A stretch of DNA of 23,063 bases. Origin: a virus. The DNA lies in IMG/VR virus record IMGVR_UViG_3300025889_000997, positions 1 through 23,063 of that record; one strand, 5' to 3'. Of the stretch, positions 14,760 through 21,110 are shown in pieces (positions within the stretch are counted from its first letter, which is position 1; the number at the start of each line of letters is the position of its first letter). The notes beneath the pieces are model-generated. The model ran no database searches, was not told the origin of the DNA, and saw nothing but the letters and a program-made list of their open reading frames with translations. The translations under genes were made by a program, and so were the position numbers.

Positions 14760-15425
14760 ATGAGCAGACAAGCAGAATTTCAAACCCAGTCGTCAAACCC
14801 GACAAAAATTTATTTAGAATGGAAATCGGACGACAAGTGCTTTGCGTATTACGACAAAGACAAAAAAGAAAATGTTAAATTGGCGTTGCCAATGAAGTTT
14901 TTGACCCTTATGGAATTTCACACGATTAAAGGGTGGAATGACAAGAATCAATCCGGCGTTTATTCAAACGAAGTCAAATCAATTGGACAAGACGAATTGA
15001 ACGTTCGACTTTTCAAAGGCAATCAAAGCGTAAAAGGAATTTACAAGGAAATCAAAGAATCAATTGTCGCGCTTGGCGGACATTACACCAAATCAATTTA
15101 TGTAATGTTAGAAGACGGGTCGATTGCTAATATTAACATCAAAGGAAGTGGCGTTCAATATTGGGGCGATTTCACACAAAAAACGCGTTCACGTTTAAGC
15201 GACGAATGGATTCAAGTTGCAAACGCAGTTGAATTGAAAAAAGGCAAAGTTGAATATTCAATTCCCGAATTCAAATTCGCAACGTCTTTAAGTGACGCTG
15301 AATCAAAAATGGCAGATGAGGCCTACAATAAATTGAAGTCATACATTGACGGGTATTTGTCAAAGCAAATTGAAGTCAAAGACGAAGAAGTAATTGACGA
15401 CAACGACATTTCGGATTTATTTTAA
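14760..15425 (+). CDS. Possible single-stranded-DNA-binding protein with acidic C-terminal tail
   Basis: The 221-aa protein is beta-rich in its first two thirds (KIYLEWKSDDKCFAYYD, ESIVALGGHYTKSIYVML, IANINIKGSGVQYWGDF) and ends in an acidic tail with a terminal aromatic (DEEVIDDNDISDLF). That combination, an OB-like body and a DD...F tail, is the mark of SSB-type proteins such as T7 gp2.5 and bacterial SSB, where the tail recruits partners. No direct homology to these is visible, so this is inference from layout and from position in the replication operon. Relatives of unknown function seem common in Bacteroidota phages. The next intergenic region holds the 39-bp repeat. Confidence 0.45.
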   Translation: MSRQAEFQTQSSNPTKIYLEWKSDDKCFAYYDKDKKENVKLALPMKFLTLMEFHTIKGWNDKNQSGVYSNEVKSIGQDELNVRLFKGNQSVKGIYKEIKESIVALGGHYTKSIYVMLEDGSIANINIKGSGVQYWGDFTQKTRSRLSDEWIQVANAVELKKGKVEYSIPEFKFATSLSDAESKMADEAYNKLKSYIDGYLSKQIEVKDEEVIDDNDISDLF

Positions 15426-15430
15426 TGAAC

Positions 15431-15469
15431 AAACCTTTTCGGTCGTATAGGTCAAACCGATTTTTAAAA
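15431..15469 (+). repeat. 39-bp perfect repeat, copy 1
   Basis: This intergenic 39-bp sequence, whose core is TCGGTCGTATAGGTCAAACC, recurs without mismatch at 20792-20830. It holds a 5-bp inverted repeat TCGGT / ACCGA with a 12-nt loop followed by TTTTT, and a GGTC direct repeat inside the loop. It ends 7 bp before the start codon of the DnaA-like gene. It may act as a weak terminator, a leader structure that controls translation, or a protein-binding site. Confidence 0.9.
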
Positions 15470-15476
15470 CTAAATT

Positions 15477-15944
15477 ATGATACAAAAACAAGTTATTAAG
15501 CACATTTTAGACTTGACCGGAATCAATATCAACACCAAGTCAAGAAAACGCGAAATCGTGGAATTGAAATCAGTTTATTCGACTATTTTAAGAAACAAAA
15601 AGATTTTGACGCTTCGTGAAATTGGCGAAGAAATCGGACTGGGACATTGTTCGGTTATTCATTTATCCAAAATTTATCCATTAATCAAAAACGAATATTT
15701 GATTGACATACACGAAAAAGTTTTAATGTTATTGGACGGAATGTCAATTGATTTGATTCTATTGCAACAAGAAAAAAGAAGGATTGAAGAACAAAAATCA
15801 AAAGTTGAAGTTGAAAAACAATCAACAATTGATCCTTTTTTCGAAAATTTGATTAAACTTGCAAATGAAAATCCCGACGTCATGTTCAAACTTGAAAATT
15901 TTTACAAAATTAATAATCAAATTTACAACAAAAATGAATCCTAA
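15477..15944 (+). CDS. DnaA domain IV-like DNA-binding protein
   Basis: Residues ~20-68 match the C-terminal DNA-binding domain of the replication initiator DnaA: SRKREIVELKSVYSTIL, then the helix-turn-helix LTLREIGEEIGLGHCSVIH, where the DnaA signature has GRDHSTVLH. The AAA+ domain is missing; instead a charged coiled coil (~100-130) and a short acidic end follow. Phage proteins with only this domain are known from Bacteroidota phages. Possible roles are binding the phage origin, capturing host DnaA boxes, or repressing transcription. It is preceded by the 39-bp repeat, a candidate for its own control. The next gene overlaps its end by 11 bp. Confidence 0.75.
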   Translation: MIQKQVIKHILDLTGININTKSRKREIVELKSVYSTILRNKKILTLREIGEEIGLGHCSVIHLSKIYPLIKNEYLIDIHEKVLMLLDGMSIDLILLQQEKRRIEEQKSKVEVEKQSTIDPFFENLIKLANENPDVMFKLENFYKINNQIYNKNES

Positions 15945-19701: not shown

Positions 19702-19813
19702 TTTGCAACGAATCCAAAGAATTATGAATTTTTACTACAAACTTGGTTGCAACAAAGAATCGGTGAATAGATTGTATTATAAAATTTTAAAAGACAAATT
19801 TAAACGAGAGTAA
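19688..19813 (+). CDS. 41-aa basic hypothetical protein
   Basis: The ORF overlaps the end of the previous gene by 14 bp and encodes a basic helical peptide (MTMSNLQRIQRIMNFYYKLG, RLYYKILKDKFKRE). The overlap supports it; nothing else is known. It ends before the 67-bp gap at 19814-19880. Confidence 0.5.
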   Translation: MTMSNLQRIQRIMNFYYKLGCNKESVNRLYYKILKDKFKRE

Positions 19814-19826
19814 TTTTTTCCCTTCA

Positions 19827-19845
19827 ATTTATTTCGAAAGTAAAT
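19827..19845. promoter_or_regulatory. Imperfect dyad in the 19814-19880 gap
   Basis: ATTTATTTCGAAAGTAAAT pairs its outer five bases on each side perfectly and two of the inner four. The gap also has a TTTTTT run just after the preceding stop. It may bind a regulator; no promoter with acceptable spacing was found. Confidence 0.25.
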
Positions 19846-19880
19846 AATAGAAAAAACTTGACAAAAAAAACTAAAATATT

Positions 19881-20069
19881 ATGAACATTAAAATAAATAT
19901 TGAAGCAAATGAAAGTAATTACATTGTAATTACACAACCAGGAATCACCGCATTTGAATTATTAGAAATTTTTAAAGGTTTAATGTATCAAATGACATAT
20001 ACTGAAAAAACAATTAACAACGCAATTTTAGAATTGGCAGAAGAAATAAAACAAAACGAAACATTATGA
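19881..20069 (+). CDS. 62-aa small phage protein
   Basis: The peptide begins MNIKINIEANESNYIVITQP and contains GITAFELLEIFKGLMY, a layout I remember from small unassigned proteins in many Bacteroidota phages. It is acidic at the end and overlaps the next gene by 4 bp. Function unknown. Confidence 0.65.
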   Translation: MNIKINIEANESNYIVITQPGITAFELLEIFKGLMYQMTYTEKTINNAILELAEEIKQNETL

Positions 20070-20239
20070 AACAAACAGCAGTAGAAAAATTAGATTACTT
20101 TTCTTGGAGAAAAAAGAACACAATAATGTTAATCAAAGGTGGTTGGTTTGGTAATCAAACACCTTGTTATGCCCAAGATGGTAAGGAAAAAACTGAAACC
20201 GAATGGAAAAAATTATATGAACAATACCAAAACAAATAA
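20066..20239 (+). CDS. 57-aa protein with MKQTAVE start
   Basis: The first seven residues, MKQTAVE, and their DNA are nearly the same as those of the gene at 20931, but the rest (KLDYFSWRKKNTIMLIKGGW, TETEWKKLYEQYQNK) is unrelated. This looks like a shared leader joined to different bodies. The end, QNK-TAA then GAT-ATG, is the junction sequence seen again near 20829 and 20916. Function unknown. Confidence 0.6.
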   Translation: MKQTAVEKLDYFSWRKKNTIMLIKGGWFGNQTPCYAQDGKEKTETEWKKLYEQYQNK

Positions 20240-20242
20240 GAT

Positions 20243-20464
20243 ATGATAACACAAGATTTATTAAATAAAATTATACAAGACACTTCCTTTAATGGCGAGT
20301 ATTGTAAGTTTTATGAAATGTTACAAGACGAATTGGATAATTATTCCAACGAACGTATTGAAAAAATGAAAGATACTTTAAAGTTTGTAAGACCAAATTT
20401 ATCAAATGAGATTGATTTATACGACAAAATGAAAGTATTATATAAATATTCAAAATTAATTTAA
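20243..20464 (+). CDS. 73-aa hypothetical protein
   Basis: The peptide begins MITQDLLNKIIQDTSFNGEY and is helical and charged (YEMLQDELDNYSNERIEKMK). The ATG follows the TAAGAT junction. No family recognised. Confidence 0.6.
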   Translation: MITQDLLNKIIQDTSFNGEYCKFYEMLQDELDNYSNERIEKMKDTLKFVRPNLSNEIDLYDKMKVLYKYSKLI

Positions 20465-20505
20465 ACAAACAAAATCCAATTGCAAGGATAAGTGCTAAAA
20501 ATATT

Positions 20506-20784
20506 ATGGAAGATTTAAAAAAAGAAGAAGTATTGATTTTTGAAAACTTAAATTATAGACATCAAAGACTTTTAGAAAAACTTTCGGAATCAGAAAGTAG
20601 ATTACATAATTCAACTACTTTATTAGGTGGAGTATATTATTTAAAAGAAAGTAAAGAAAGTGATTCTGAAATAAAACAAAATCATTTAAGTAACTATAAT
20701 AATCAATTAGATTATTTTGAAGGTACGCTTTCATATATATTTAATCATATTGAAAGGTTAGAAAATTTATTAGTTCGTAAATAG
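20506..20784 (+). CDS. 92-aa helical hypothetical protein
   Basis: The protein is largely helical with heptad-like spacing (KKEEVLIFENLNYRHQRLLE, LSYIFNHIERLENLLVRK), suggesting a small coiled-coil protein. Codon use is GAT/TTA/AGA-rich, like the genes around it and unlike the core. No family recognised. The second 39-bp repeat follows its stop. Confidence 0.6.
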   Translation: MEDLKKEEVLIFENLNYRHQRLLEKLSESESRLHNSTTLLGGVYYLKESKESDSEIKQNHLSNYNNQLDYFEGTLSYIFNHIERLENLLVRK

Positions 20785-20791
20785 AAAAACA

Positions 20792-20830
20792 AAACCTTTT
20801 CGGTCGTATAGGTCAAACCGATTTTTAAAA
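20792..20830 (+). repeat. 39-bp perfect repeat, copy 2
   Basis: This copy is identical to 15431-15469 over 39 bp. It lies 7 bp after the stop of the 92-aa gene and 12 bp before the start of a 27-aa membrane peptide, so it occupies the same place relative to a start codon as copy 1. The genes after the two copies are unrelated. Confidence 0.9.
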
Positions 20831-20842
20831 AACAAATAAGAT

Positions 20843-20926
20843 ATGAAAGAGTTAGTAGAAATAGTAATTATATTAATCGGAGCATTAATTATATCAATAA
20901 TTTTAAAACAATTTAAAAACAAATAA
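20843..20926 (+). CDS. 27-aa single-span membrane peptide
   Basis: This tiny ORF (MKELVEIVIILIGALIISII then LKQFKNK) is almost all one membrane helix with a basic end, and it has the same leader (AAATAAGATATG) as the gene at 20243. The 39-bp repeat directly upstream is its only visible control element. It ends 4 bp before the next start. A toxin-like, antiholin-like or small regulatory membrane peptide are options; nothing decides among them. Confidence 0.5.
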   Translation: MKELVEIVIILIGALIISIILKQFKNK

Positions 20927-20930
20927 GATT

Positions 20931-21110
20931 ATGAAACAAACTGCAGTAGAATGGTTAGCAGAAAAATTAGAATCAATTACACAAGATTTATTTCAACAAG
21001 CCAAAGAAATGGAAAAGCAACAGATTATTGATGCTTATAATGAAAATGAAAATTATATGTGTGACGGAACAGAAGGAGAACAATACTACAACGAAACATT
21101 TAAAAAATAA
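20931..21110 (+). CDS. 59-aa MKQTAVEW-type conserved phage protein
   Basis: The protein (MKQTAVEWLAEKLESITQDL, then AKEMEKQQIIDAYNENE and EQYYNETFKK) belongs to a very common set of small proteins in flavobacterial phages and prophages, recognised from memory by MKQTAVEWL, AKEMEKQQIIDAY and the end QYYNETF. Its function is not known to me. The internal helix with the EKQQIIDAY motif is the conserved core. It shares its start with the gene at 20066. Confidence 0.75.
   Translation: MKQTAVEWLAEKLESITQDLFQQAKEMEKQQIIDAYNENENYMCDGTEGEQYYNETFKK

Follow-up and report, generated by a model that had tools for sequence, protein, structure and literature searches.

The stretch of DNA analysed here (the window, 23,063 nt) is a virus record that is not backed by any longer genome, and carries two copies of a 39-bp sequence, one between a gene for an SSB-like protein and a dnaA-like gene and the other between two small open reading frames, ORF92 and ORF27 (Table 1). 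PHROG 6706, in which the SSB-like protein falls, is a family of unknown function; the AlphaFold model of this protein (pLDDT 77) has no significant match in the PDB, and Pfam, PDB sequence and fold searches gave no confirmation of its identity as an SSB.

Table 1. Features at the two copies of the 39-mer; elements of the core are given for copy 1.
Feature	Position	Strand	Remark
Gene upstream of copy 1, 221-aa beta-rich SSB-like protein, acidic tail ending in F	14760..15425	+	PHROG 6706
39-mer copy 1, core RNA motif 15433-15460	15431..15469	+	Match to model R1, 46.7 bits
S1 5' strand ACCU	15433..15436	+	Invariant in 30/30 aligned members; pairing with 15449-15452 suggested by complementarity only
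S2 5' strand UCGGU	15439..15443	+	Covarying helix
Loop NGYAU (CGUAU in the window)	15444..15448	+	Conserved in most members; 4-nt forms exist
S1 3' strand AGGU	15449..15452	+	Invariant
S2 3' strand ACCGA	15456..15460	+	Covarying helix
T5 tract	15461..15465	+	Frequent in this phage group, missing from many other members
Gene downstream of copy 1, 155-aa protein, DnaA C-terminal helix-turn-helix	15477..15944	+	PF08299, E=4.5e-5, under the Pfam cut-off
ORF92, upstream of copy 2	20506..20784	+	No relative among fetched loci
39-mer copy 2, core RNA motif 20794-20821	20792..20830	+	Exact repeat of copy 1
ORF27, coding for a hydrophobic 27-aa peptide, after copy 2	20843..20926	+	ORF

The recurrence first noticed in a sequence-only reading of the window is real: the two copies are exactly identical and lie on the same strand, the bases immediately flanking them differ, and they stop 7 and 12 nt short of the ATG codons at 15477 and 20843, as that reading had it. 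Both also begin shortly past a stop codon, the ACCT of the core following that of the SSB-like gene by 7 nt and that of ORF92 by 9 nt. Searching the window with a 38-nt query (up to three mismatches) added no copy to these two, and shuffled sequence yielded none. Among the internal features that had been proposed, the TCGGT/ACCGA stem and the T5 run are both present in the 39-mer; the GGTC 'direct repeat in the loop' is no conserved feature, because the last C of its second GGTC varies freely among relatives (C, A, T or G), and one half of its first GGTC lies within the stem. A GGTC direct-repeat binding site was rejected on account of this free variation. Copy 2, known from the window alone, sits inside an accessory segment (about 19.80-20.91 kb, about 1.1-1.3 kb in length) that is missing in close relatives. 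This segment (19800-20910) is made up of small ORFs, ORF92 and ORF27 included, and is an indel hot spot, being absent or different in close relatives. Small paralogous genes with an MKQTA start, which share an A-rich leader and shift in position, are found at 20066-20239 and 20931-21110 of the window and after 7562 in the related locus L003.

Relatives that share both the SSB-like gene and the dnaA-like gene with the window (L004, L006, L008-L010, L012, L015 and L029/L252) carry the element in the same gap, with a core altered at just two loop positions. Third codon positions of the SSB-like gene differ by 7-28% in the four relatives compared; this contrast and the recurrence of the motif in unrelated phages support the earlier proposal that the sequence is under selection. 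Compensatory change is seen at orthologous sites, where the stem reads TTGGT/ACCAA in L251 and, in L255, L256 and L260, ACGAT/ATCGT with loops one base shorter. In L003, a small MKQTA-type gene separates the element from the dnaA-like gene, and the junction that follows the element (ACAAATAAGATATG) matches the one behind copy 2 of the window and not the one behind copy 1. In many still more distant relatives, the slot past the SSB-like stop is occupied by an ordinary intrinsic terminator. A strong terminator in this slot is followed in L288, L292, L297, L301, L310, L312, L314, L316 and L322 by a conserved aatagtacacatttaaagcgttttcctatacccc-like stretch, perhaps a promoter or operator.

The core of the 39-mer follows the pattern ACCT-UN-S2(5 bp)-NGYAU-AGGT-NAA-S2', which is also present in unrelated phages. 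The general motif occupies about 25-30 nt and is composed of a 5' ACCU, 1-2 nt, the 5-bp helix S2, a loop NGYAU or GUAU, AGGU, NA(A) and the partner strand of S2; the T5 tract is absent from many members and hence lies outside it. Loop length differs among members (5, 4 or 3 nt) with the stems retained, the shorter-loop form occurring at the orthologous sites of relatives, in microviruses and in crAss-like phages. In a covariation alignment of 30 members (A2), S2 shows 41 double-changed cells, where shuffling gives 15.1 +/- 2.5 (0/500), with three covarying pairs in its own core and one outer pair; slid controls collapse, and the covariation is seen again within the short-loop class. The S1 strands, ACCU and AGGU, are mutually complementary and invariant, and a scan with S2 fixed and S1 mostly free found real members with ACCT/AGGT only, which places S1 beyond a test by covariation. 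Given the complementarity of ACCU to the AGGU in the loop, the likely fold is an H-type pseudoknot, which S1 and S2 together give on paper; since S1 never varies, this fold is implied and not proven. Alternatively, the RNA may form a plain hairpin in which the 12-nt loop and the 5' flank are conserved. Single-sequence folding of the element showed nothing unusual.

Viral sequences were scanned with this pattern first with the stem fixed and then with S2 free, pairing in the latter case not being used for selection; the S2-free scans of viruses and of prokaryotes both used the class I loop (NGYAU) pattern. The S2-free viral scan returned 25 distinct copies with the full loop sequence (NAAAC), with all five S2 pairs Watson-Crick in 18 of them and four pairs in a further 5. 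Applied to 84,980 prokaryote genomes, the matching scan returned 36 distinct copies; one of them had four S2 pairs and none had all five, as chance would predict. Across the same genomes, neither paired copies nor arrays of the class I pattern were found, and a mimic of a CRISPR repeat or antitoxin was rejected accordingly. Rfam 15, at gathering and at permissive thresholds, holds no real match to the element, a blast search of a 66-bp stretch of the window against phage records gave chance matches only, and the literature searched for the motif letters contained no occurrence. We suggest that the element belongs to a small folded-RNA motif not described before, whose recurrence in very different bacterial viruses hints at a virus-specific RNA function.

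The carriers and their genes are diverse. In the capybara microviruses SP_61 and SP_77 the motif follows the capsid gene, SP_66 and SP_330 have the short-loop form in the same place, and pig microviruses have the motif at a different place; the crAss-like carriers are cr50_1, Kolpuevirus 'frurule' and cr126_1, and further contexts include a major tail protein gene and positions ahead of a holin and ahead of a tRNA (L014). Neighbouring genes are unrelated across carriers, with no conserved class of regulated gene, and a gene-associated riboswitch or leader family was rejected for this reason. The gene that follows the motif in cr50_1 (L336, 1535-2134) encodes a 199-aa protein with the tail EGEIVDDDEL; this is possibly an SSB, in which case the motif adjoins SSB-like genes in two unrelated phages. 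Complete genomes have one clear copy each and the contigs, which are fragmentary, mostly one; three contigs hold a second, divergent copy, which counts against the reading favoured below. In Kolpuevirus and cr126_1 the motif lies within the leader of a 93-aa gene, and in cr106_1 and phage DAC15 the same leader lacks it, with the bases on both sides conserved; this marks the element as a unit added to the leader, no part of the basic ribosome-binding region. The notion of a mobile or selected cassette thus holds in part, in that the element is a discrete unit present or absent at one otherwise conserved crAss-like leader, but not as the many-copy arrangement of T4-style cassettes, as most genomes have one copy. 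A conserved leader, CTCATTACTCCTCC...TTGAAT, precedes crAss-like 93-aa genes in L335 (around 1440-1480), L340, L341 and L342, and partly precedes paralogues too.

The motif occupies non-coding gaps and has the sense orientation in every member with an identifiable flanking gene. Both this orientation and the avoidance of coding sequence speak against a DNA-level operator or origin, bound for instance by the DnaA-like protein, as does its occurrence next to other genes in both microviruses and crAss-like phages. Such an operator would fit the replication genes that adjoin the window copy and the almost exclusively Watson-Crick pairs of S2, where the one G-U pair is in cr50_1 (short-loop class); this near-lack of G-U is unusual for RNA and counts against an RNA motif. 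Overall, the evidence points to RNA, and we consider a DNA operator highly improbable. The other contexts in microviruses and crAss-like phages, together with the intervening gene in L003, likewise leave the suggestion that the DnaA-like protein is the regulator unsupported. An intrinsic terminator as the general function was rejected, as a terminator scan found no site at either copy and many members lack a U tract; the motif does resemble intrinsic terminators in that some members have a T tract behind the stem and in that it fills the slot which terminators take up downstream of the SSB-like gene, but it differs in its conserved loop of 10-12 nt, its conserved 5' ACCUU and its want of a general T tract. 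Programmed readthrough or frameshifting was also rejected, the readthrough frame shutting at once in 6/19 cases and no frame being consistently open. Models built on a DNA operator, on a terminator, on recoding or on the DnaA-like protein leave these facts unexplained, and three possibilities are left: a leader element acting in cis, an element at a 3' boundary, and an RNA whose action does not depend on its location.

The core starts 7-11 nt past a stop codon in most lineages (14, 16 and 23 nt in the exceptions), with no close upstream stop in cr50_1, Kolpuevirus and L014. Most lineages also have a start codon 7-33 nt further on, the exceptions being L057/L064/L080, L075, L166 and L014. A gap of about 60 nt places so short an element near both genes, and neither need therefore be its target. 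An element that makes or shields the 3' end of the mRNA ahead of it would explain the usual distance from the stop codon, and would suit both the abundant structural proteins (capsid, major tail) encoded by some upstream genes and the strong terminator that distant relatives keep after the SSB-like gene; against it stand the negative terminator scan at both copies, the many members without a U tract, the want of a co-directional upstream gene in cr50_1 and the single copy per genome, which is odd for a stability element, and we regard it as unlikely.

Proximity to a start codon in many members would also suit cis translational control, in which the pseudoknot, 5' of the ribosome-binding region and together with a bound factor, would tune translation of the downstream gene. 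The distance is 7-11 nt in several members from microviruses and crAss-like phages, no gene of the same direction precedes the motif in cr50_1, and there is a precedent in the operator of T4 gene 32, which is a pseudoknot (PMC3014915). If the fold proposed for the motif is right, both are small H-type pseudoknots in untranslated stretches of phage mRNA, and an SSB-like gene lies alongside the motif in the window and possibly in cr50_1. The T4 pseudoknot, however, sits in the leader of the SSB gene, whereas the motif comes after the SSB-like gene, both in the window and in its relatives, lies beside unrelated genes as well and is conserved in sequence across unrelated phages. The unrelatedness of the downstream genes, the lineages without a nearby start codon, the tRNA that follows in L014 and the replacement of the downstream gene in L003 with the element retained all weigh against a cis leader, which we hold to be possible, if doubtful.

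Other known systems offer partial parallels. The promoter/stem-loop cassettes (PeSL) of T4-like phages, like the motif, are stem-loop modules found between genes and repeated within a group of phages, but the motif usually occurs once per genome and is common to unrelated phages, microviruses included. A put-like RNA, which modifies the transcribing RNA polymerase for processive antitermination, would share with the motif its gene independence, sense strand, single copy and restriction to phages, and RNA polymerase would be a host factor conserved between phyla; the motif is, however, far smaller than the put RNA of HK022, and this reading appears improbable. Type III antitoxin RNAs (ToxI, antiQ, CptI, TenpI) and phage pseudo-ToxI are pseudoknots of about 30-40 nt, similar to the fold proposed for the motif, and a pseudo-ToxI carried by a phage is able to neutralise the toxin of a host (PMC5086642). 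Type III antitoxins are tandem repeats, in contrast to the motif, which is single in the window, in the loci and in complete phage genomes; the prokaryote scan for the class I pattern found no matching type III-like arrays, and no toxin family was found among the flanking proteins scanned, which cover part of the lineages.

We lean towards the view that the 39-mer is the local form of a phage-restricted structured RNA that is recognised by a factor and probably acts independently of the neighbouring gene, a mode favoured by the usual single copy per genome and by the lack of any associated gene. In an untranslated gap of the phage mRNA, clear of terminating and initiating ribosomes, the motif would stay folded, and its invariant ACCU/AGGU and NGYAU would most likely be bound by a protein or ribonucleoprotein, one that presumably either is conserved across hosts or comes from many of the phages themselves. 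The RNA could then bind or sequester this factor as a decoy, or mark its own transcript, neither of which would be tied to control of one particular neighbouring gene, and the two identical copies in the window would be explained by recent duplication or acquisition combined with strong constraint. More tentatively, the motif may represent a trans-acting phage RNA family, a pseudoknot of <30 nt that unrelated phages with hosts from different phyla mostly carry as a single copy, and which would capture a conserved host or defence factor and be expressed from whichever gap stays free of ribosomes.

What is new here is the RNA family; its mechanism may prove familiar. Its function looks testable, since the motif is small enough to probe and mutate and there is a carrier with a recorded host, the Kolpuevirus of Bacteroides cellulosilyticus (OQ198718). 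A compact RNA motif that ssDNA microviruses have in common with crAss-like, Flavobacterium-type and other phages, and that is tied to no gene and absent, in the class I pattern, from the prokaryote genomes scanned, implies a selected function at the RNA level, which phages would gain independently or by transfer.
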